Made by a program: the position numbers and the translations under genes. Of a DNA stretch of 50,889 nucleotides, positions 18,629-36,605 are shown in pieces; position 1 is the stretch's first letter; each line of letters begins with the position of its first letter. A model generated the notes under the pieces. The model saw nothing but the letters and a program-made list of their open reading frames with translations, had not been told where the DNA came from and made no database searches. Source of the stretch: a bacterium (GTDB taxonomy: Bacteria; Bacillota_I; Bacilli_A; Izemoplasmatales; UBA1188); the NCBI GenBank assembly GCA_017960565.1, contig JAGCYY010000033.1, positions 1-50,889 on the forward strand, given 5' to 3'.

Positions 18629-19786
18629 TTATAGACTATTTTCGATTCTTATCAGTTCATTAAATTTAGGAATAGAACCACTAGAATTAATCGATAATAA
18701 TCTAATTTTATTTATAGAAAGAGCTACTCCTAGATCGGCAATAAAAGAATCTTCAGATTCATTTTCAGATGCACTTAAATACACATATATATTATTATCT
18801 CTTAGATATTCTATTAAATCAGATATTTCACTGATAGTTCCTATTTCAGTAATAGAAAGCATTACTGCATTCACTGTAGCACTTGAAATAGCTTTTTCTA
18901 TTCTTCTTCTATTTGATTCAAAATAATTATAGCCGATTATTTTAGATCTATTTGTTAGTCTCTTTGTGAGTTTTTTATAGCCATCATTGTCAGCGTGATA
19001 TAGTGGGTCTATGAACCCATCAATATTGAATCTCTTGACAAGCATATCATAATAATCGATTATTTCTTGAGTTTTCTTAAGAGATTCAAAATTATATTCT
19101 TTGGTTTTCGCATCATAGAAATCATCCATAAACATATTTAGATAGATGGAATAATCTATATTATTCTTATAATATAGTTTTCCAGCTATTTTGATAATTT
19201 CTTGAATTACATCTTTTAATGATTTATTTTCAGTGTGGAGATTCTCTTTCACCATAAAACTAACTTCTTTAAGAAGCCTTAATGATTCAATAATTTTGTC
19301 TTTCATAGGGTCAAATATGATCTCTATTCCGTTATGTTTATAGATTGTCACAAGTGGTGATGGAATAGACCTTTTTACTGCACCACCAAGGTATGAGTGA
19401 AGTGAAAGACCAGTATAATCACTTGCTGCACGGGCAATAGCTAATGAGACAGCTGATATTGCATTTAATCCTAATTTTGTTTTATTGATTGTGTTATCAA
19501 GTTTATTTAATTTGTTGTCGATTCTAACTTGTTCTCGACAATCTTCACCAATCAGAGCTTTTTCAATTTCTAAATTGATATTATCTACTGCTTTATTGAC
19601 ACCGAGTCCAAAATATTTAGAACTATCTTTATCTCTTAAATCTTTAATAGTTGTCTTTGATGAATATAGTGATGCAGAACTAGCTCTACCATAAGCACCT
19701 GATTCTGTGAATACTTCACATTCAACTGTTGGAAAGCCACTTGAATCTAATATAACTTTTGATAATATTTCAGTAATATAAGGCAT
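18629..19786 (-). CDS. Enolase-like protein lacking catalytic residues (pseudoenzyme)
   Basis: A 385-residue protein, shorter than the roughly 430 of enolase but clearly homologous. VILDSSGFPTVECEV (11-25) matches the enolase start, FIDPLYHADNDGYKKLTKRL (258-277) matches the IEDP region, and FNELIRIENSL is the C-terminus. The active-site positions are changed: the Asp metal ligand is N217, the Glu of IED is I259, the GDD segment is GYN (285-287), the base Lys is S311, the HRS triplet reads SAS (338-340), and the late Lys is R362. The metal-binding His/Glu loop is not seen. It is unlikely to make phosphoenolpyruvate; a structural or regulatory role is possible. A good AGGAGG precedes the ATG. 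Confidence 0.85.
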   Translation of the reverse strand: MPYITEILSKVILDSSGFPTVECEVFTESGAYGRASSASLYSSKTTIKDLRDKDSSKYFGLGVNKAVDNINLEIEKALIGEDCREQVRIDNKLNKLDNTINKTKLGLNAISAVSLAIARAASDYTGLSLHSYLGGAVKRSIPSPLVTIYKHNGIEIIFDPMKDKIIESLRLLKEVSFMVKENLHTENKSLKDVIQEIIKIAGKLYYKNNIDYSIYLNMFMDDFYDAKTKEYNFESLKKTQEIIDYYDMLVKRFNIDGFIDPLYHADNDGYKKLTKRLTNRSKIIGYNYFESNRRRIEKAISSATVNAVMLSITEIGTISEISDLIEYLRDNNIYVYLSASENESEDSFIADLGVALSINKIRLLSINSSGSIPKFNELIRIENSL

Positions 19787-20364: not shown

Positions 20365-22416
20365 ATGGAACTAAACTTAAAAAAATTATCAGAAATACTA
20401 AAAAAGAATAAAATAAACAATATCAACTATACAGTTCCTGATTTATGGTTTTTAGAAAATTATAAAATAGATCATAAATTTTTACCTACTAGAGAAGTTA
20501 TGGTTAATCCATATGATTTTTATAGTGCTGTCATTGATGAATATCTTCTTCCACGTGCGAAAGATGATATCGATTATTCACTCTCTTATTCAAAAGGTCA
20601 TAATATCAAATCCACAAATGGTGAATGGATAAAAAGACAAGTTTTATATTCAATGATGATTAGAACGGAATCGAGTTATGATAGTGATAGAAGTTATTCG
20701 CTTGATATATCTAACATCGATGGTTTAAAAGAAACAGGAACTTTTGTGAAGACATTAGCGCTTCTTCCATTCCTTAAAAGATTAGGTGTAACTGTGGTAT
20801 ATCTTCTACCTCTTTCTAAATATAGTTTAAAAGATAAGAAAGGCGAACTTGGAAGCCCATATGGTGTCGAATCATTTACTAAATTAGATCCACTACTAAA
20901 AGATACTATGACTGGAACTCATATGACTCTTGAAGAAGAATTTAAATGTTTTGTAGAGGCATGTCATATTCTATCGATGAGAGTTACTATAGATATTATC
21001 CCAAGAACTAATTCTGTTTGTAGTGAACTTGTGAGAAAACATCCTGATTGGTTCTATTGGATTAAGGCTAGCGAATATAAAAAATATAAAGTGCCAAAAG
21101 TTGAAGGTCTTGGAAGCTGTCTATATCCATCATATGATCTAATGGATAAGGTCTATGAAAGTGCTGATGTAATTAGGCATATCAAGATGTTTAAGACTAA
21201 TCCAAAAGATATGGATATTGAAAAATGGAATAAGATCAAAGGAAAAACTAATGAAGAATTTATAGAAGCGATTGAAAAAGAATTTGATCTAAAAATCGCT
21301 CCTGCCTTTAGTGACAACATCAATGACCCTCAACCTGCCTGGACTGATGTGACATTCTTCAGATTATATTTAGATGATCCGGTTAAGACTAGAGATTTAT
21401 TAAAGATAAAACATAATCCATATATCTTATTTGACGTTGCTAAATCGAATTTATATCCTGGAGAAAAGCCAAATAAGAAATTGTGGGATTTAATCGCGTC
21501 TATCATTCCCTATTATCAAACAAACTTTGGCATAGATGGTGCAAGAATCGATATGGGTCATGCCCTACCAGATGATCTATTAAAGCTTATTATGAATAAT
21601 GCAAAATCTATCGATGATGATTTTGCCTTCATCGCTGAAGAACTTAATATGGCTAATGATAAGATGGTTAAAGAAAATGGCTATAATGCGATGATAGGGA
21701 ATGGTTTTTGGGCTCTTCCTAGAGTCAGAGAAGGCGAATTTAAAAGATTCATCGATAATTTAAAAAATAAGATGGTTCCATGTTTTGCATCTGTCGAAAC
21801 TCACGATTCTCGAAGATGTACAAATAGATATGGCGGAAGAAAATTAACTAGATTTATGACAATCTTAAACTACTTCCTTCCAAACGCTATACCATTTATC
21901 AATAGCGGACAAGAAATCTATGAAATTGAGCCAATGAATTTAGGGTGTGATGCTTCTCTTTCTGATCTTACTGTTCTCGATAAAGATGATATCTTTTATG
22001 GTAAATTAGCTTTATTTGATAAATATGCATTCCACTATAGAGGCGAACATTCAAAAGAGATAATGAATCATTTAGTTGACGTTATTAAGACTAGAAACAG
22101 ATGGTTAAATTCTATTTGTGATATTAATTATTATGTTCCAATAAATTTCTATAGAGAAAATAGTATGGTTGTTGGGATTGGATATTATAATGATAAAGGC
22201 AAAATGCTTATTATTCTCGCTAATTCTGATATGGATAATATGGTTGAGGTTCAAGCATCTATCAATATCTTAAGAGAAAAGACTGGAAATGATAATATGT
22301 ATGGAAGATTGTTATATTCTACATATGAATTTCCAAGAAATTTTTATGACTTTAATATTAATCAAGATATAAGTGTGTGCTTAAATAGTGGTGAAGTAAA
22401 AATAATTGAAATATAA
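20365..22416 (+). CDS. Cytoplasmic glycoside hydrolase family 13 enzyme
   Basis: A 683-residue GH13 (alpha-amylase clan) protein without a signal peptide. The (beta/alpha)8 motifs are visible: FGIDGARIDMGHALP with nucleophile D396, FIAEELN with the acid/base Glu (425), and VETHD with the third acid D481. The first 100 residues and the 280-340 insert are not assigned. It probably acts on internal alpha-glucans such as glycogen; the exact reaction cannot be read from the sequence. It may be related to transferases as much as to hydrolases. AAGGGAG precedes the ATG. It stands alone on the plus strand between two terminator or promoter regions. Confidence 0.85.
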   Translation: MELNLKKLSEILKKNKINNINYTVPDLWFLENYKIDHKFLPTREVMVNPYDFYSAVIDEYLLPRAKDDIDYSLSYSKGHNIKSTNGEWIKRQVLYSMMIRTESSYDSDRSYSLDISNIDGLKETGTFVKTLALLPFLKRLGVTVVYLLPLSKYSLKDKKGELGSPYGVESFTKLDPLLKDTMTGTHMTLEEEFKCFVEACHILSMRVTIDIIPRTNSVCSELVRKHPDWFYWIKASEYKKYKVPKVEGLGSCLYPSYDLMDKVYESADVIRHIKMFKTNPKDMDIEKWNKIKGKTNEEFIEAIEKEFDLKIAPAFSDNINDPQPAWTDVTFFRLYLDDPVKTRDLLKIKHNPYILFDVAKSNLYPGEKPNKKLWDLIASIIPYYQTNFGIDGARIDMGHALPDDLLKLIMNNAKSIDDDFAFIAEELNMANDKMVKENGYNAMIGNGFWALPRVREGEFKRFIDNLKNKMVPCFASVETHDSRRCTNRYGGRKLTRFMTILNYFLPNAIPFINSGQEIYEIEPMNLGCDASLSDLTVLDKDDIFYGKLALFDKYAFHYRGEHSKEIMNHLVDVIKTRNRWLNSICDINYYVPINFYRENSMVVGIGYYNDKGKMLIILANSDMDNMVEVQASINILREKTGNDNMYGRLLYSTYEFPRNFYDFNINQDISVCLNSGEVKIIEI

Positions 22417-24416: not shown

Positions 24417-24594
24417 TTTTATTTAAATTATGAATACAGTCCATTAGGCATGTTTGACATTTAGAATCTATATTCTCACAGTCTTTTGGCTTTTTAGTTC
24501 TAAGGTTTAGAATTGTGATTAAAAAGAAGACAATGATGATTCCAACTATTACTAATACTTTTACCCAAGTTGCGACTAAGATAATATTAAGCAT
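24394..24594 (-). CDS. Small Cys-rich membrane protein (FeoB-associated type)
   Basis: A 66-residue protein with one N-terminal membrane helix (about 4-26), a basic stop (LRTKKPKD) and a short Cys-rich tail with four Cys (C-x6-C-x2-C-x3-C). The layout resembles the small proteins annotated as FeoB-associated Cys-rich membrane proteins, although no feoB is visible here. The ATG at 24594 overlaps the phosphoglucomutase stop (ATGCTTAA); a start further upstream would force a 56-nt overlap. The tail could bind metal. Confidence 0.6.
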   Translation of the reverse strand: MLNIILVATWVKVLVIVGIIIVFFLITILNLRTKKPKDCENIDSKCQTCLMDCIHNLNKNGQDNRQ

Positions 24595-26296
24595 TAGATA
24601 CTTTATCGATGATTGATAATACTTCACCATCGATTCTTTCAATTAATTCTTCTGCTTCATGAATACTTGAAGCTTTTGCGGAATAATATACTTTAAGTTT
24701 TGGTTCTGTTCCAGAAGGTCTTATTACAGCCCAAGTATAATTGTCTAAAATATATTTGATTACATCTGATTTAGGAAGTGTTATTGCGGTTTGAAGTTGA
24801 GATTGAAGTTGAATTCTCTTGCTTTCGAGATAATCTTCTTTTACCAAAATATCTACTCCACCAAGTTTTGAAATTGAAGATGTTCTAAAATAATCAGTTA
24901 TTTTAGCCATTTTCTTTGGACCATCTGCACCCTCAAAGAACATGTTTCTTGTATATTCTTTATAATAACCATATTTTTCATATACTTCATTTAAAACAGT
25001 AACTAGGGTTTTATTTTCTTTTATGTGGTAGTAATTTGCCATTTCGCAGATCGCAATGAGAGATTGAATAGAATCTTTATCTCTCACATAATCTTTGATG
25101 ATATAACCATAAGATTCTTCATAACCGAAGATAAAGTTTGTATCAGTACCCTCAAGAAGTTTAGCTTGTTCGCCAATGAATTTGAAGCCTGTCAATGTTG
25201 AAAATACTTGAAAACCAAATGATTTAGCGATTGATGCACCGAGTTCAGATGTGACAATTGTGTTGAATACTTTACCTTTCTTAGGTAGAATACCAAGTTC
25301 TTTTTCTTTTGATAATCTAAAATATAGAAGGAGCGCACCAGTTTGGTTGCCTGTCAAATAATGATATTTTCCTTCGTGGAGAACACCGATTCCCACTCTA
25401 TCTGCGTCTGGATCGGTTGCGACTAAGAGATCAGCACCAACTTTTCTTCCTAGTTCTTCTGCGAGTTTGAAGGCATTTGGATCTTCTGGATTTGGAAGAG
25501 CGACAGATTTGAAATATGGATCGTGTTCCATTTGAGCATCGACAAAATATGCATCATATCCACGTTCAAGTAGAACTCTTTTAGCCATATCAGCACCAGT
25601 GCCATGAAGTGGTGTATAAACAACTTTAATTTTTCTTTCAAGGTCTTTAAAAAGTTCTACTGATTCTGCGGCGCTTGCGAAAGCATCATCGACATCTTTT
25701 GATAATATTTTATATAGTCCCATTGATTCCATCATTTCAAAATCCATAACTGGAATTTCAAAGATGTCTTCAACTTTATTTACTTCTTCGATGACTTTGT
25801 CAGCGGCATCTATTGTATATTGACAACCATCTTCGTCATAGATTTTATAGCCATTGTATTTAGAAGGATTATGACTTGCAGTAATCATTATGCCAGCTAT
25901 AGCTTTTAAATATCTTACAGAGAAAGAAAGTTCTGGAGTAGTACGCAGATCATCAAACATAAAACATTTGATTCCAAAAGACGCAAGAACTTTCGCTGAT
26001 TCAATTGCGAAATTTCTTGAATTTAATCTATTGTCATGAGATATAACGACACCTCTAGATATTTCTTCTTTATATCTATTTACTAGGTATTTACCAAGAC
26101 CATAATTTGCCTTTCTTAAAGTATAGATGTTCATTCTATTTGTGCCAACACCCATTACTCCTCTCATACCACCTGTGCCAAATGTTAGATCTGTACTAAA
26201 GGCATCTAATAATTCGTCTTTAGATAATTTTTTGATTTCTTTTAGGATTTCAGGATCTTTCTTTCCTTGAAGTTGCCATTTTTCTAGATTTGTCAT
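24587..26296 (-). CDS. pgcA: Alpha-phosphoglucomutase/phosphomannomutase family
   Basis: A 569-residue complete enzyme. It has the phosphoserine loop TASHNPSKYNGYK, the metal loop ATDPDADRVG, the sugar-binding loop GYEESYGY and the phosphate-binding RPSGTEPK. It interconverts glucose 1-phosphate and glucose 6-phosphate, which links glycolysis to the ADP-glucose glycogen pathway encoded 7-12 kb away. GTAGGAGG precedes the ATG. It is in the middle of a co-directional run (26309 gene, pgcA, Cys-rich protein, ung, ECF component, kinase). Confidence 0.93.
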   Translation of the reverse strand: MTNLEKWQLQGKKDPEILKEIKKLSKDELLDAFSTDLTFGTGGMRGVMGVGTNRMNIYTLRKANYGLGKYLVNRYKEEISRGVVISHDNRLNSRNFAIESAKVLASFGIKCFMFDDLRTTPELSFSVRYLKAIAGIMITASHNPSKYNGYKIYDEDGCQYTIDAADKVIEEVNKVEDIFEIPVMDFEMMESMGLYKILSKDVDDAFASAAESVELFKDLERKIKVVYTPLHGTGADMAKRVLLERGYDAYFVDAQMEHDPYFKSVALPNPEDPNAFKLAEELGRKVGADLLVATDPDADRVGIGVLHEGKYHYLTGNQTGALLLYFRLSKEKELGILPKKGKVFNTIVTSELGASIAKSFGFQVFSTLTGFKFIGEQAKLLEGTDTNFIFGYEESYGYIIKDYVRDKDSIQSLIAICEMANYYHIKENKTLVTVLNEVYEKYGYYKEYTRNMFFEGADGPKKMAKITDYFRTSSISKLGGVDILVKEDYLESKRIQLQSQLQTAITLPKSDVIKYILDNYTWAVIRPSGTEPKLKVYYSAKASSIHEAEELIERIDGEVLSIIDKVSNA

Positions 26297-28806: not shown

Positions 28807-31206
28807 TTATTTAAGTTTTTTGATATGCCAGATGTCTCTTGCGTAGTCTTCAATCGATCTATCACTTGAAAAATATGGTGATTTCATAGTATTGAAAAGC
28901 GAGATTCTAGCGAAGTTTCTCTTATTTTTATAAAGATTATTTATATGTTCATGAGCGAGTCTATAAGACTCAAAATCACCTAGAACCATATAAAAATCGT
29001 TATACATTAGTCGTTCATAAATCTCTTTAAATTCATCTGGATTTACGTCACTAAAGAATCCATTCACAAGCGAATCTACGGCACATCTTACGAATTCATT
29101 TGATATATAATATGGTCTAGATGAATATTTATTTCTATTTTCAACAACTTCATCTTTTGTGAAACCAAAGATTTCCATATTTTCAGGCCCAACTAGATCG
29201 TATATCTCGACATTAGCGCCATCTAGTGTACCTAAGGTGATTGAGCCATTCATCATCGCTTTCATATTTCCTGTACCACTTGCTTCATAAGATGCTAGAG
29301 AGATTTGTTCACTCACTTCAATCGCAGGCATGATGATCTCAGCGATTGATACACCATAATTTTCGATGAAGACTACTTTTAAATATTTAGAGATTTCTTC
29401 ATCGTCATCAATTTTTTTAGCGATTGTGTTGATTAATTTGATAACTTTCTTTGCAAAATAATAACTACTTGCGGCCTTAGCACCAAAAATGAAAGCATGA
29501 GGTTCATATTGTTTTCTAAATTCTGTATCATTTTTGAGTCTAATATATAAATAGATGATATGAAGGGCGTTTAGTAGCTGACGTTTGTATTCGTGGAGTC
29601 TTTTAACTTGAACATCAAATATAAATGATGGATCAAGTTTATGTTTCATATCTGGATTCTTAGAATTGATGTAACTAGCGAGACGTTCTTTATTTTGATA
29701 TTTTGTCTCTATAAAGCCGTCTAATAGTTCTATATTATCTAGATATGATTCAAGGTATGAAAGTTTGGAAATATCATTTTTGATTCCAGGAACATATTTT
29801 TCTATTAGCTGAACGAGTTGAGGGTTCGAATTTATAAACCATCTTCTTGGTGTAATACCATTTGTGACATTTTTGAATTTTTTAGGATAAAGATCATTAA
29901 ATTCTTTCATGACATTGTTCATGAGAAGATCGGTATGGAGTTTGGCAACACCATTGACACTATAAGACACATGAGCGAGTAAATTAGCCATATGAACATA
30001 GTTGTCTTTAATAATCGCAACCTGGTCGACAAATTCTTTTTGATAACCTTTTTGATAGAGACCATCGACGAATCTTCTATTGATTTCATCAATTATTTCC
30101 ATATTTCTTGGTAGAATATTTCTTACAAGACTCGTATTCCAAGTTTCTAGTGCTTCTCTTAAAAGAGTGTGGTTTGTATAACAAGTTGCGTTCTTGACAA
30201 TATTGAAAGCATCATCCCATTCATATTCTTCTTCATCTAGGAGTATTCTCATAAGTTCTGAGATGATTATTGTTGGGTGGGTATCATTTAAGTGAATGAT
30301 TGCGTGTTTATCAAGGCTATCTAGCGATCCATATTTCATTTTTTCTTTATTCACGATCGATCTGATTCCGGCAGCACTAAAGAAATATTGCTGAACAAGA
30401 CGAAGGCGTTTACCATCTTCGCTTGAATCATCTGGATATAAAAAACCACAGATGTTTCTAAGATCCATCTCATAATTAAATGCTGATTTATTTAGAGGAT
30501 ATTTTCTTGCAGGTTCAGCATTCCAAAGCCTTAGAGTATCGATTATTTCATTTTTATATCCGATAATTGGGACATCATATGGAACAGCTTTAATATATTC
30601 ACTTGGATGATATACTCTCTTACCATTTTCAAATTGAACATAGCCATAAAGAGGGATTTCAATTGCCTCTTCTTCTTTTCTTATTTCATAATTGAATCCA
30701 TCAGATAGCCAATCATCTGGACGTTCTTCTTGGTAACCATTTTTGATTTTTTGGCGAAATAGACCATATCTGTATCTTATTGTGTTGCCAACTGCGGGAT
30801 AAGACATACTAGCAAGTGAATCAAAGTAGCAAGCCGCAAGTCTTCCAAGACCGCCATTTCCAAGACCTGGATCTTTTTCAACTTCTAATATATCATCTAG
30901 TGATATATTTAAAGAATCTAGTGAATTTTTTATTACATCCATTACACCTAGTGATTCTATATTAGATTTTGTGAGCCTTCCAAGAAGGAATTCCATAGAA
31001 AAATAATAGACAACTTTAGCGTTTGATTTATCGATTTTTTTCTTGGTATTTAGCCAAAAATATGATGTATAATCCATGATCATTTGGCTTAGGCAATTGT
31101 ACATCATTCTTGGACTTGCCGAGTCGATATTTACTAGATATTTGTTTTTGAGTCTTAATTTAAATTCTTTTAAAAATTCATTTGTTGAATTGAAGTATTT
31201 GTTCAT
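28807..31206 (-). CDS. glgP: Glycogen phosphorylase
   Basis: A 799-residue, full-length GT35 enzyme. It has VVYYFSMEFLLGRL near the start, DPGLGNGGLGRLAAC, the KRLHEYKRQLLN segment and the PLP-lysine region EASGTGNMKAMMNG. It releases glucose 1-phosphate from glycogen, which the pgcA product can convert to glucose 6-phosphate. It follows the glgD-glgA fusion by 7 nt in the glg operon. Confidence 0.96.
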   Translation of the reverse strand: MNKYFNSTNEFLKEFKLRLKNKYLVNIDSASPRMMYNCLSQMIMDYTSYFWLNTKKKIDKSNAKVVYYFSMEFLLGRLTKSNIESLGVMDVIKNSLDSLNISLDDILEVEKDPGLGNGGLGRLAACYFDSLASMSYPAVGNTIRYRYGLFRQKIKNGYQEERPDDWLSDGFNYEIRKEEEAIEIPLYGYVQFENGKRVYHPSEYIKAVPYDVPIIGYKNEIIDTLRLWNAEPARKYPLNKSAFNYEMDLRNICGFLYPDDSSEDGKRLRLVQQYFFSAAGIRSIVNKEKMKYGSLDSLDKHAIIHLNDTHPTIIISELMRILLDEEEYEWDDAFNIVKNATCYTNHTLLREALETWNTSLVRNILPRNMEIIDEINRRFVDGLYQKGYQKEFVDQVAIIKDNYVHMANLLAHVSYSVNGVAKLHTDLLMNNVMKEFNDLYPKKFKNVTNGITPRRWFINSNPQLVQLIEKYVPGIKNDISKLSYLESYLDNIELLDGFIETKYQNKERLASYINSKNPDMKHKLDPSFIFDVQVKRLHEYKRQLLNALHIIYLYIRLKNDTEFRKQYEPHAFIFGAKAASSYYFAKKVIKLINTIAKKIDDDEEISKYLKVVFIENYGVSIAEIIMPAIEVSEQISLASYEASGTGNMKAMMNGSITLGTLDGANVEIYDLVGPENMEIFGFTKDEVVENRNKYSSRPYYISNEFVRCAVDSLVNGFFSDVNPDEFKEIYERLMYNDFYMVLGDFESYRLAHEHINNLYKNKRNFARISLFNTMKSPYFSSDRSIEDYARDIWHIKKLK

Positions 31207-31213
31207 GTTAGTC

Positions 31214-33637
31214 TCACTTTCTTTCGATTGAATATAGATTTAGGTATTCTTTAGCACATTTTTTGAAAGAGAATTCTGATCTCATTCCGTTTTTGATTAA
31301 GATTTCCCATTCATTTCTATTTGTTGAATAGATTGAATAGGCAAGATTGATTGCGCTTATTAAATCACGATAATCTTGGTTATAGAACTTAAAGCCATTT
31401 CCACTTTTAGATGTTCTATCGTAAGAACTGATAGTGTCGTTTAGTCCTCCTGTTTGTCTGACAATTGGAACTGTTCCATATTTAAGGGCAATCATTTGGC
31501 TTGTACCACAAGGTTCGATTCTTGATGGCATCAAGAAGACATCGGCGCCACTATAGATATATGATGGTTCTGTACCATAAAAATCTAGGAATAGTTTTAC
31601 TTGCGATTTATATCTTTCCTCAATTTCTTTAAGACGAGATATAATGAGTGGATCACCAATGCCTAAGAGGACAAAGTGAATTTTTTTGTTTTCAAGAAGG
31701 CTATAGAGGGCATTTGTGATGAGATCAAAGCCTTTGATACTATCGATTCTTGAAACCATGCCCATAATAAACATATCGCTTGAATATTCAAAACCACAAA
31801 TATCTGACAAATATTTTTTATTTATCTCTTTTTTGATAAATAAATCTTCATCATCGATACTATAGCGTGATGCAAGAAGGACATCGGTGTTGGGATCGAG
31901 TTTACTTGAAAGCCCATTTACTATACCATAAAAATCTGGAGTCCTTCTCATGATGGCTTCTCTTAAGTTTCCAGAATAGTATTCATACTTAAGTTCCTCT
32001 GCATAAGTTTTAGATACAGTGTTTAGAATGTCAGCTGTATTAATTCCAATTTCTAAAAAACTCACTTTAGGTCCTTCGATAGAATAATCTAGTTTAAAAT
32101 GTTCGATTACATCTTTATCGGATGTACCTTGATATGAGAGGTTGTGAATAGTTAAAACTGATAAAGATTTTTGATACATCTCATATTTCTTTTTGAAAAG
32201 TGGGAGAAGGCACATATGCCAGTCATGAATATGGAAGACGTCAATTTCAATGTTCCTACTCTTTAAATATTCAAATACTGCATATGTGAAATAGGCAAAT
32301 CTATATCTGTCATCATCATAACCATAAATCTCTTCTCTATCAAAAAACATATATAGATCGAGAAGAATGTATGTGAGTTTCTCAATCTCTTTTTTAAATA
32401 CACCAATATGATATGTCTTATCGAAAATGGTGATATCTAATTCTTCACGTTTTTCAGATTCGTTTTGGTGCTTGTTTCTAATTTCTTTATATAGTGGGAT
32501 AAAGAGATATACTTCTGAACCTTGATGAGCGATTTCACGGGCAAGACTACCGACCATATCCGCAAGTCCACCGCGTTTTACATATGGTGAACATTCCGCA
32601 GATAACATCGCAACACGTGGGTGTTTTGCGGAAAAGACTGTCTGTTTCTTTTCAGAGACAAATGGATCATCGCTTGTCCCGACAACGACAGCGCCTTCTT
32701 CAACGATCGATTCTTTATCGAGAATAGCGTTTACGAGATAGGCATTTTTCTTTATTATGCAGTTGTTCATGATGATAGAATTTTTGATTACTGCACCTTC
32801 TTCTACTCTAACTCTTCTTGATAAAATAGAATTTTCTACTGTTCCATCTATGAAACAACCAGATGTCATTATTGTAGATTTTACTGATGCTGCACTTCCG
32901 TAATATGTCGGTGAATCAAATTGATCTTTTGCGCGTACTTTTTCTAGTCTTTCAAGGCCTGTTGGGAAGGCACTACCGATAAAACCCATCTGCATCTTAT
33001 AATATTCATCTAAGGTTCTAATATATTTGGCATAGCGATCATATATAATTGTGTTTTTTGTTTCTTGATTAGAATAATCAAATACTTCACAGAGATTTCG
33101 ATAACTTATAGTGCTATAATTTTCAATATAGGTCATAAGTTTTTCTTTTTTGATGATAAAGGTATATAATCTTTCACCATTTTTATTGACGATTTCTGTG
33201 ATATCTTTTTCTGATTCAATATGGTTTTTAACAAATTCTTCAAGATTTGGAAACCAGAAGATGGTTGAAGGCATGATGATACAATATTCTTGATTTGATC
33301 TTCTAAAATAGTCATCTTGACTTTTCATTCTTTGAAATGATAAAAATTCTTCATCGACTGGATTAGACGATTTTGGTGGAAGAATAAAGATGCCATCAAC
33401 TCTTCTTGCGAGATTGAATCTTGCACCATCGCCGATATGATCGTGAAGGCTTCGATAATTTCTATCACAAAAAACACCGACATTGGTGATATTTGATTCT
33501 GTCGCAGATGAGATGGCAATATCGATTAGACGATATTTTCCAAGGACAGGAATCGCACCGGGAACACGGTGTTTTGTCAATGATTTAAAATTTAATTGAG
33601 CTTGTGCATCAATCACTAAAAATGTGTTATTAAACAT
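31214..33637 (-). CDS. GlgD-GlgA fusion: ADP-glucose pyrophosphorylase-like subunit joined to glycogen synthase
   Basis: An 807-residue protein made of two normally separate proteins. Residues 1 to about 330 are GlgD-like: a nucleotidyltransferase fold without the catalytic GGxGxRL (it reads IDAQAQLNFKSLTKHR), then a left-handed beta-helix. Residues from about 338 onward are a complete GT5 glycogen synthase: KRGGLAD (354-360), the HIHDWHMCLLP segment, SRIDSIKGFDLI and the IEPCGTSQMIALKYGTVP nucleotide-sugar site. The synthase transfers glucose from ADP-glucose to glycogen; the front part probably pairs with GlgC. The start codon overlaps the glgC stop (ATGTTTAA), with GGAG 7 nt upstream. The frame is continuous, with no sign of a frameshift. 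Confidence 0.93.
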   Translation of the reverse strand: MFNNTFLVIDAQAQLNFKSLTKHRVPGAIPVLGKYRLIDIAISSATESNITNVGVFCDRNYRSLHDHIGDGARFNLARRVDGIFILPPKSSNPVDEEFLSFQRMKSQDDYFRRSNQEYCIIMPSTIFWFPNLEEFVKNHIESEKDITEIVNKNGERLYTFIIKKEKLMTYIENYSTISYRNLCEVFDYSNQETKNTIIYDRYAKYIRTLDEYYKMQMGFIGSAFPTGLERLEKVRAKDQFDSPTYYGSAASVKSTIMTSGCFIDGTVENSILSRRVRVEEGAVIKNSIIMNNCIIKKNAYLVNAILDKESIVEEGAVVVGTSDDPFVSEKKQTVFSAKHPRVAMLSAECSPYVKRGGLADMVGSLAREIAHQGSEVYLFIPLYKEIRNKHQNESEKREELDITIFDKTYHIGVFKKEIEKLTYILLDLYMFFDREEIYGYDDDRYRFAYFTYAVFEYLKSRNIEIDVFHIHDWHMCLLPLFKKKYEMYQKSLSVLTIHNLSYQGTSDKDVIEHFKLDYSIEGPKVSFLEIGINTADILNTVSKTYAEELKYEYYSGNLREAIMRRTPDFYGIVNGLSSKLDPNTDVLLASRYSIDDEDLFIKKEINKKYLSDICGFEYSSDMFIMGMVSRIDSIKGFDLITNALYSLLENKKIHFVLLGIGDPLIISRLKEIEERYKSQVKLFLDFYGTEPSYIYSGADVFLMPSRIEPCGTSQMIALKYGTVPIVRQTGGLNDTISSYDRTSKSGNGFKFYNQDYRDLISAINLAYSIYSTNRNEWEILIKNGMRSEFSFKKCAKEYLNLYSIERK

Positions 33638-34748
33638 CTAATTTCTCCAAGAATTTACTATCGACTAGTGTTACTTTATTAAAAGAAAGATTCAATCCAT
33701 CTTTGATTGTTAGAGCTTCATCGACTATGGCATTTTTGATTATTACGTTTTTGCCGATCTTAGTCGATGGTAAAATCACTGAATCTTTTATAATAGATCC
33801 TATATCCACTTTAGTGTCATATGACAAAATCGAATGGATTATTTCTCCATTAACTATACATCCATCGGCGATAGATGAATTGATAATTCTTGCTTTGTCA
33901 CCGATAAAATGAGGCGGATAATCATAAGCACGTGAATATATTTTATATTTTTGACCTTTATTATCTAAGATTTCTGGATGATCTAAATAGAACATATTTC
34001 CTTGATAGAGTGAACTTATTGTCCCTACATCCATAAATCTTCCGGTATAGTTATATGAATAAACTCTATTTGTTTCTTTGATTAAGAAAGGAATAAAGTC
34101 ATTGCCAAAATCTATTAGTTTATCTGCATAGTGTAGATATTCTAATAAGAAATCTTTGTTGAAGAGATACATTCCAAGTGAGATTCTATTTGATTTTGGA
34201 TTATCAGGTTTTTCTTCAAATCCGATAACTTTGTTTTCATGATCATATTCGATAATGCCAAAACGTTTTAAATCTTCTTTATTATCTAGATCTTGAGAGA
34301 TGATTGTTAGTTCGGCATTATTTTTCTTATGTTCATCTAAGATTTCACGAAAATCTATTTTATAGATTTGATCACCTGATAGAATCAAAACATATTTAGA
34401 TGTTAGAGATTTGATGAATTCAATTTGACTTAATACTGCGTTTGCGGTTCCTTTTTGATAAACAAGGGAATTTTTAGCCTCATATGGAGTTAAAAATGCA
34501 ATACCAGAATTGAAATAATCTAAATCCCAACTGGATCCACTTCCAATATATCTCATAAGTTCATATGGTTCATATTGAGTGATAATTCCTACTTCTTCTA
34601 CACCAGAATTAGAGATTGATGATAAAGGAAAGTCGATAATTCGATACTTTCCCATGAAGCTTACATATGACTTAGATTTGTTTTTAGTGAGACCTTGAAG
34701 TCGTGTACCACGACCACCGACAAGGACTATTGCGCTTAATTCTTTCAT
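33630..34748 (-). CDS. glgC: Glucose-1-phosphate adenylyltransferase
   Basis: A 372-residue enzyme with the catalytic GGRGTRLQGLTKNKSKS near the N-terminus, LSGDQIYKID, the GFEEKPDNPKS block and a C-terminal beta-helix. It makes ADP-glucose from ATP and glucose 1-phosphate, the committed step of bacterial glycogen synthesis. It is translated together with the GlgD-GlgA fusion (8-nt overlap), suggesting that GlgC and the GlgD domain form one complex. The ribosome site is weak; coupling to glgB is likely. Confidence 0.95.
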   Translation of the reverse strand: MKELSAIVLVGGRGTRLQGLTKNKSKSYVSFMGKYRIIDFPLSSISNSGVEEVGIITQYEPYELMRYIGSGSSWDLDYFNSGIAFLTPYEAKNSLVYQKGTANAVLSQIEFIKSLTSKYVLILSGDQIYKIDFREILDEHKKNNAELTIISQDLDNKEDLKRFGIIEYDHENKVIGFEEKPDNPKSNRISLGMYLFNKDFLLEYLHYADKLIDFGNDFIPFLIKETNRVYSYNYTGRFMDVGTISSLYQGNMFYLDHPEILDNKGQKYKIYSRAYDYPPHFIGDKARIINSSIADGCIVNGEIIHSILSYDTKVDIGSIIKDSVILPSTKIGKNVIIKNAIVDEALTIKDGLNLSFNKVTLVDSKFLEKLDV

Positions 34749-34751
34749 TTT

Positions 34752-36605
34752 TTATTTTCTTTTAAAAATTGTCGTAGAGAGAGGTGCAAGGGTGATAGAA
34801 ATTGATTCTTCAAAACCATGCATTGGAATATTTACTGATTCTAGTGGAAGGCCATTATAGAGGTTTGAACCACCAAATTCTAACTTATCACTATTTAAAA
34901 TTTCTTCATATGTTCCTTTATATGGAACACCTACACGATAATCTAGATATGAATTAGGCGTTAGATTCACAATGACAATTAAATTTTCATCTTCACATTT
35001 TCTTTCAAAAATGAAAACTGATTGATTAGAGTTTGATTGATCAATCCATCTAAATGATTCATAATTGTCATCGGCTTTATAAAGAGCCTTATGGTTCATA
35101 TAGAGTTTATTGATGTAGGCGACAAAGTTTTGAGCCGTTCTGTGGTTGTCATATTGAAGGAGGAACCAGTCGAGTTCGCTTTTTTCTCGCCATTCTCTAA
35201 ATTGAGCAAATTCACCACCCATAAATAATAATTTTTTGCCTGGATGAGTAAACATAAAACCGATTAAAGCACGATATCCAGCGAAGCGTTGCCAATAGTC
35301 TCCTGGCATTTTTTCGATTAGAGAGCCTTTTCCATGAACTACTTCATCATGTGATAATGGTAATATAAAGTTCTCACTAAAGGCATATACTAGTGAGAAT
35401 GTTATATAGTTGTGGTGATATTTTCTATAGATTGGATCTTTTGCAAAATATTTTAAGGTGTCATTCATCCAACCCATATTCCATTTATAATCGAAACCGA
35501 CACCGCCAATAGATGTTGGTTTTGTGACGTTAGGGAAAGTTGTAGAATCTTCAGCTGAGAGGATGACATTTCTATCATATGACTTAACAGCGTCTGATAG
35601 ATCTCTTAAGAATCTTACTCCACCTTCGTTGATGCCATTTCGCATATCACCAAGATAATAATAGATGTTTGATACAGCATCTAATCTAAAGCCATCGATA
35701 TGGAAATATTCCATAAAGAAGAAAGCATTAGAGATTAAAAATGATTTGGTTGTGCCTTTTTGAAGATCGAGGTTAGCTGTACCCCATGTAACATTTTCTC
35801 TTCTATATTCATCATCAAATTCATATAGATGACTTCCATCAAAGCGATATAGTCCATGAGCATCACGGCAAATATGGCCTGGTACCCAGTCCATAATTAC
35901 TTTGATATCTGCTTTATGTAGTTCATCTATTAGATACATTAGATCTTTAGGTACACCATATCTTGAGGTAATAGAATAATATCCAGTGCCTTGGTATCCC
36001 CAAGATTCATCGAGAGGGAATTCTACTAGTGGCATGAATTCAACGGCATTGAAACCCATTTTTTTAAGATATGGGATTAAAAGTGGAGGTAGTTCATTAT
36101 ATTTGTTGAAGGAACCATCGGGTTTAGTCATCCAAGAACCTATATTCATTTCATAGATCGATAGTGGTTCATGAAGATGATCACTATTTCTTCTTCTTTC
36201 TAGATATTCTTTGTCGTGCCAATAATAGCCATCAATATCATAGACTTTACTGCATGTTTCTGGTCTATTATCACTAAAGAAGGCATATGGATCTGATTTA
36301 AATAATGTTTCATTTTGTCTTGTGACAATCACATAACGATATTTTGTCCATTCACCAATAGATTCAATAAATAATTCATAAATACCATTATCATCGATTC
36401 TATTCATTGTGTGAACTCTTGAATCCCAGTTATTGAAATCACCTATTATTGATACAATTCTTGCATTAGGAGCATATACTCTAAAGATTGTACCTAAGGT
36501 ATTTCCATTTTCATCTTTTACGATGTGAGAGCCAAAAAGATCATAAGCTTTTTCTAGTTTCCCTTCATTGAACAAGTATAAATTGAATGCATCAAAACTA
36601 TTCAT
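34752..36605 (-). CDS. glgB: 1,4-alpha-glucan branching enzyme
   Basis: A 617-residue GH13 branching enzyme. It has an N-terminal CBM48 beta domain (residues about 20-115), DGFRLDAVSN with the nucleophile Asp, the SAEDSTTFP acid/base region and LPLSHDEVVHG. It makes the alpha-1,6 branch points of glycogen. GAGGGGG precedes the ATG. It is the first glg gene of the run and starts 21 nt after recX with no visible terminator between, so it may be read from upstream promoters. Confidence 0.96.
   Translation of the reverse strand: MNSFDAFNLYLFNEGKLEKAYDLFGSHIVKDENGNTLGTIFRVYAPNARIVSIIGDFNNWDSRVHTMNRIDDNGIYELFIESIGEWTKYRYVIVTRQNETLFKSDPYAFFSDNRPETCSKVYDIDGYYWHDKEYLERRRNSDHLHEPLSIYEMNIGSWMTKPDGSFNKYNELPPLLIPYLKKMGFNAVEFMPLVEFPLDESWGYQGTGYYSITSRYGVPKDLMYLIDELHKADIKVIMDWVPGHICRDAHGLYRFDGSHLYEFDDEYRRENVTWGTANLDLQKGTTKSFLISNAFFFMEYFHIDGFRLDAVSNIYYYLGDMRNGINEGGVRFLRDLSDAVKSYDRNVILSAEDSTTFPNVTKPTSIGGVGFDYKWNMGWMNDTLKYFAKDPIYRKYHHNYITFSLVYAFSENFILPLSHDEVVHGKGSLIEKMPGDYWQRFAGYRALIGFMFTHPGKKLLFMGGEFAQFREWREKSELDWFLLQYDNHRTAQNFVAYINKLYMNHKALYKADDNYESFRWIDQSNSNQSVFIFERKCEDENLIVIVNLTPNSYLDYRVGVPYKGTYEEILNSDKLEFGGSNLYNGLPLESVNIPMHGFEESISITLAPLSTTIFKRK

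Follow-up and report, generated by a model that had tools for sequence, protein, structure and literature searches.

In the genome of an uncultured bacterium from the rumen, which belongs to the order Izemoplasmatales, we identified a single gene that encodes a GlgD-type subunit of ADP-glucose pyrophosphorylase (AGPase) joined to a complete glycogen synthase of family GT5. We will call the protein GlgDA. The gene lies in a stretch of 50,889 nucleotides, which we will call the window. We think it is probable (about 68%) that GlgDA and the catalytic subunit GlgC together form a mixed AGPase to which glycogen synthases are attached, and that the fusion arose by the loss of a single stop codon and was then inherited vertically. 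Bacteria commit to storing glycogen, and control it, at the step that makes ADP-glucose, which is usually assumed to reach the synthase by diffusion. Because a modulatory AGPase subunit has been naturally fused to the synthase since ancient times, the coupling of these two successive steps can be tested in Turicibacter and Haloplasma, genera for which isolates exist.

Table 1. The fusion gene, its parts, and neighboring genes in the window
Feature	Position	Strand	Description
glgD-glgA fusion gene	31214..33637	-	807 amino acids; single open reading frame without internal stop
GlgD-like half	32630..33637	-	residues 1-336; degenerate nucleotidyltransferase domain and left-handed beta-helix
Linker of fixed length	32618..32671	-	residues 323-340; from beta-helix to synthase
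GT5 glycogen synthase half	31214..32617	-	residues 341-807; active site intact
glgC	33630..34748	-	catalytic ADP-glucose pyrophosphorylase subunit; GGRGTRL, SGDQ, EEKP, and MDVGT present
glgB	34752..36605	-	branching enzyme (profile search)
glgP	28807..31206	-	glycogen phosphorylase (profile search)
phosphoglucomutase/phosphomannomutase-like gene	24587..26296	-	named from sequence

The earlier note on this DNA proposed that a GlgD-type protein and a full synthase were joined in one frame, and profile searches bear this out. Matches to GlgD/NTP_transferase and Hexapep_GlmU cover residues 1-333. The score of this half against TIGR02092 (GlgD) is 218.3 bits, which is below the curated cutoff of 236.6. 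Compared to ordinary GlgD, the D half is shorter by ~36 amino acids, including the region around Lys195, and this deletion falls between the two stretches that TIGR02092 matches. In the fused D halves, the catalytic set of GlgC (the GGxGxRL loop, Asp142, Lys195, and Asp276) is replaced or deleted throughout: when we aligned 69 fused proteins, the P-loop glycines, Asp142, and Asp276 were replaced, and the Lys195 segment was deleted in all 69. For instance, the window's D half has Thr125 at the position of Asp142. (Ordinary GlgD proteins do have a residue in the Lys195 column, but it is not lysine.) So the note was correct that the glycine-rich loop is missing, and the remaining catalytic residues are gone as well. 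In a phylogenetic tree, all of the D halves group on the GlgD side, not with GlgC, and they are joined by short GlgD proteins from Haloplasma and from a genus that we will call g77. Also, Foldseek matched the AGPase-like part to the AGPases of A. tumefaciens and E. coli (E ~ 1e-16). By its sequence, the D half is a catalytically dead AGPase subunit of the GlgD type. The window's GlgC retains all of the catalytic residues that we checked.

The synthase half matches TIGR02095 (glgA) with 423 bits, against a cutoff of 328.45; the alignment runs from residue 341 to 803 and from position 2 to 475 of the 477 in the model. By alignment with the E. coli enzyme, K354, D472, H498, R630, K635, and E708 correspond to the active-site residues K15, D137, H161, R300, K305, and E377, and all six are invariant across 58 homologs. 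The equivalents of Lys15, Arg300, Lys305, Glu377, and Cys379 are kept in all 69 fused proteins. By Foldseek, the synthase part is similar to E. coli glycogen synthase (2qzs, E = 5e-34). The synthase half is probably active with ADP-glucose.

The junction between the halves lies at residues ~320-341. All 58 homologs have the same spacing, exactly 47 residues, from the last Asp-Lys of the beta-helix (K308) to the KxGGL motif of the synthase (K354). In these homologs, Gly320 and Lys330 are invariant and Gln332 is nearly so. The family members are 35-75% identical to the query, and none has an insertion or deletion in the linker, so the geometry seems to matter. We considered whether a free synthase could be released by internal initiation. 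There is no start codon at the junction, and the first ATG (residue 344) comes only within the synthase's first strand, so we disregarded this idea. AlphaFold2 modeled the whole chain with a mean pLDDT of 89.7 and a pTM of 0.82, although the relative placement of the two domains is only suggested by the model.

The genes are ordered glgB-glgC-[glgD-glgA]-glgP, all on the minus strand. (Read on the plus strand, 31214-33637 contains no open frame.) As the earlier note had stated, the fusion gene overlaps glgC; the overlap is 8 nucleotides, and glgP begins 7 nucleotides downstream of the fusion gene. In all 66 loci, glgC is directly upstream of the fusion (65 were identified by a script, and L070, which the script missed, has glgC too). 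The phosphoglucomutase/phosphomannomutase-like protein is a probable supplier of glucose-1-phosphate, and several relatives have a homolog of it close to the fused operon.

Could the fusion be an error of sequencing or assembly, or a recent pseudogene formed by readthrough? A missed stop codon or frameshift at the junction, which the earlier note had raised, is ruled out by a search of whole genomes: the full-length frame is open in 51 of 61 related genomes, as well as in Haloplasma and Turicibacter, and 56 of the 61 have a gene that spans the junction. In five genomes (G004, G035, G050, G052, and G054), the fusion is incomplete or interrupted, yet the junction is crossed. Dozens of independent assemblies share the open frame, and some of these are single contigs. 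Pairwise dN is ~0.11-0.15 for the D half and ~0.15-0.19 for the A half; pairwise dS is ~1.1-1.9, which is near saturation; and dN/dS is ~0.1 for each half. Both halves are under purifying selection. One related genome does have a copy that is broken by several stops (L071; G049 C8:8000-12648). This is a relative with a small genome, also from the Izemoplasmatales, and its glg operon as a whole, with the fused gene in it, carries several stops and seems to be in decay. Given the shared open frame and the low dN/dS, we consider the chance of an artefact or a pseudogene to be negligible.

The fusion is found throughout the order, which named relatives in GTDB (Candidatus Izimaplasma HR2 and Candidatus Izemoplasma acidinucleici) identify as Izemoplasmatales. 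The genus to which the window belongs is represented by MAGs from the rumen. Beyond this order, we found the fusion in two related gut and marine genera, Haloplasma (Haloplasma contractile) and Turicibacter. When we searched the window's phylum, the matches listed were all in the same class. Among the matches listed for 399 genomes of the clostridial phylum (below 1e-185) and for 297 genomes of the actinobacterial phylum (below 1e-170), we did not see the fused gene; the strongest matches were unfused glgD-glgA neighbors, and every match listed has stops between the two parts. Some matches in Clostridia and Atopobiaceae extended beyond the junction, and these proved to be unfused neighbors as well. 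Similarly, matches with stops in the class's other families, which we considered as candidates for readthrough, were separate adjacent genes. In those other families, in Clostridia, and in Atopobiaceae, glgD and glgA lie side by side as separate genes, and GlgD has 364-376 amino acids (404 in one ORF call).

To examine the origin of the fusion, we built a tree of each half separately, using a quick search with SH-aLRT support only. In the tree of the A halves, all fused proteins form one clade (support 99), with Turicibacter at the base. In the tree of the D halves, the fused proteins and a stand-alone short GlgD from Haloplasma form one branch (support 84), whose internal order is open, and this branch joins the short GlgD of g77 in a clade with support of 97. 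On each tree, the fused state requires only one change. Because the fused proteins form a single group in the trees of both halves, these phylogenies point to one ancient fusion. The shortening of GlgD most likely came before the fusion, since the unfused short GlgD proteins of g77 and Haloplasma group with the fused D halves. We propose that an ancestral glgBCDAP operon, whose glgD was already shortened, lost the one stop codon that separated glgD from glgA, and that the resulting fusion was passed on vertically.

In g77, which belongs to the Turicibacter family, the short glgD ends in TAA and the ATG of glgA follows in frame with zero bases between (L047:4375-5400 and L048:2818-3843). A single stop codon separates this layout from a fusion. 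It illustrates the step but is not the direct ancestor, because the GlgA of g77 falls outside of the fused A clade. For the same reason, the idea that the g77 layout arose by fission of a fused gene is unsupported. The stand-alone GlgD of Haloplasma (338 amino acids) lies after a separate glgC (L154:3569-5730, in G100 C70) in a genome that also has the fusion operon, and it is a natural unfused control.

GlgD of Firmicutes is inactive and modulates GlgC within GlgC/GlgD tetramers (PMC9093745). By analogy, we propose that the N-terminal half of GlgDA is a non-catalytic subunit that assembles with the separate, catalytic GlgC to form a mixed AGPase of the GlgC/GlgD type. The C-terminal half would work as a glycogen synthase that uses ADP-glucose, and the end of the beta-helix would keep it in a fixed place. 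GlgC would then make ADP-glucose right next to the enzyme that uses it up, with the two activities co-localized and at fixed stoichiometry, and this proximity might be beneficial. Any benefit might come from channeling, from shared regulation, or from the localization or the stoichiometry itself. A mixed AGPase would explain both the constant proximity of glgC and the retention of a dead domain. The earlier note's proposal that the fusion ties the production of ADP-glucose to its use is well supported indirectly, by the dead GlgD half, the constant glgC neighbor, the fixed length of the linker, and the selection on both halves. A stronger version is that GlgC and GlgDA form an assembly of fixed geometry that passes ADP-glucose directly, with AGPase effectors controlling the synthase, and that this has been so since the ancestor of Izemoplasmatales, Haloplasma, and Turicibacter; we view this as doubtful.

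Because the D half is ~36 amino acids shorter than ordinary GlgD and scores below the curated cutoff, it may associate with GlgC in a different way or no longer at all. It might instead be a regulatory or oligomerization domain of the synthase, with GlgC as a homotetramer. But GlgC is adjacent in every locus that we examined, and the D half is strongly conserved at residues 60-116, which presumably correspond to the loop region near the activation and subunit-interface loops of characterized AGPases. We consider this alternative to be unlikely, even though the D half has diverged from ordinary GlgD and GlgC homotetramers are active elsewhere (PMC9093745). It is less likely still that the fusion merely sets the ratio of expression and the stability of its parts, with GlgD modulating GlgC but with no kinetic benefit from the proximity of the active sites. 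The loss of a stop codon should be easy, as glgD and glgA are neighbors in many Firmicutes and Coriobacteria, and the structure of the TreS-Mak complex appears to rule out channeling in that system (PMC11046441), but the lack of indels in the linker suggests that geometry matters. More broadly, the fusion alone does not prove that there are two functions, since one half of the GlgA-GlgB fusion of Waddlia is inactive (PMC7935935).

Other fusions between enzymes of glycogen metabolism have been described, but they are rare. The Waddliaceae and Criblamydiaceae have a GlgA-GlgB fusion, which likewise joins glycogen synthase to another enzyme of the same pathway. It has been called exceptional in Waddliaceae (PMC7935935). 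It differs from GlgDA in its partner and in the order of the domains; also, its branching half is non-functional and the pathway is decaying, whereas both halves of GlgDA are conserved across the lineage. The TreS-Mak and GlgB-MalQ fusions also combine alpha-glucan enzymes, but of different pathways and folds (PMC7935935, PMC11046441). The closest parallel to the D half is the GlgC/GlgD AGPase of Firmicutes (Geobacillus, Streptococcus mutans, and Ruminococcus albus), in which an inactive GlgD-type subunit accompanies a catalytic GlgC and the operon is of the glgBCDAP type; by contrast, the GlgD part of GlgDA is shorter and is continuous with the synthase. Similarly, the synthase half shares the fold and the catalytic residues of the GT5 GlgA proteins of E. 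coli and A. tumefaciens, but GlgDA adds an AGPase-like subunit at the N terminus. We found no description of a GlgD-GlgA fusion in the open-licence papers that we searched, which agrees with the earlier note's statement that the arrangement is not known from well-studied species. The fusion is a new clue to the purpose of the enigmatic, inactive GlgD subunit, and GlgDA could be used as it stands to engineer glucans.

GlgDA is not the only route in the window's genome, as another contig encodes a separate glgA2-glgC2 pair (G000:C29, ~104670-107361; locus L062:6671-9361, minus strand). These are stand-alone enzymes of canonical length, and many Izemoplasmatales, as well as Turicibacter, have the same pair. 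Because this second pair is ordinary and separate, this genome may have two routes for glycogen or glucan side by side. Near the glycogen operon, but on the opposite strand (20365-22416), the window encodes a divergent protein of 683 amino acids that resembles alpha-amylase or cyclomaltodextrinase; its matches to these families are weak only. The window also encodes a short, divergent enolase of 385 amino acids (18629-19786, minus strand), which scores 252 bits against TIGR01060, compared to a cutoff of 300.
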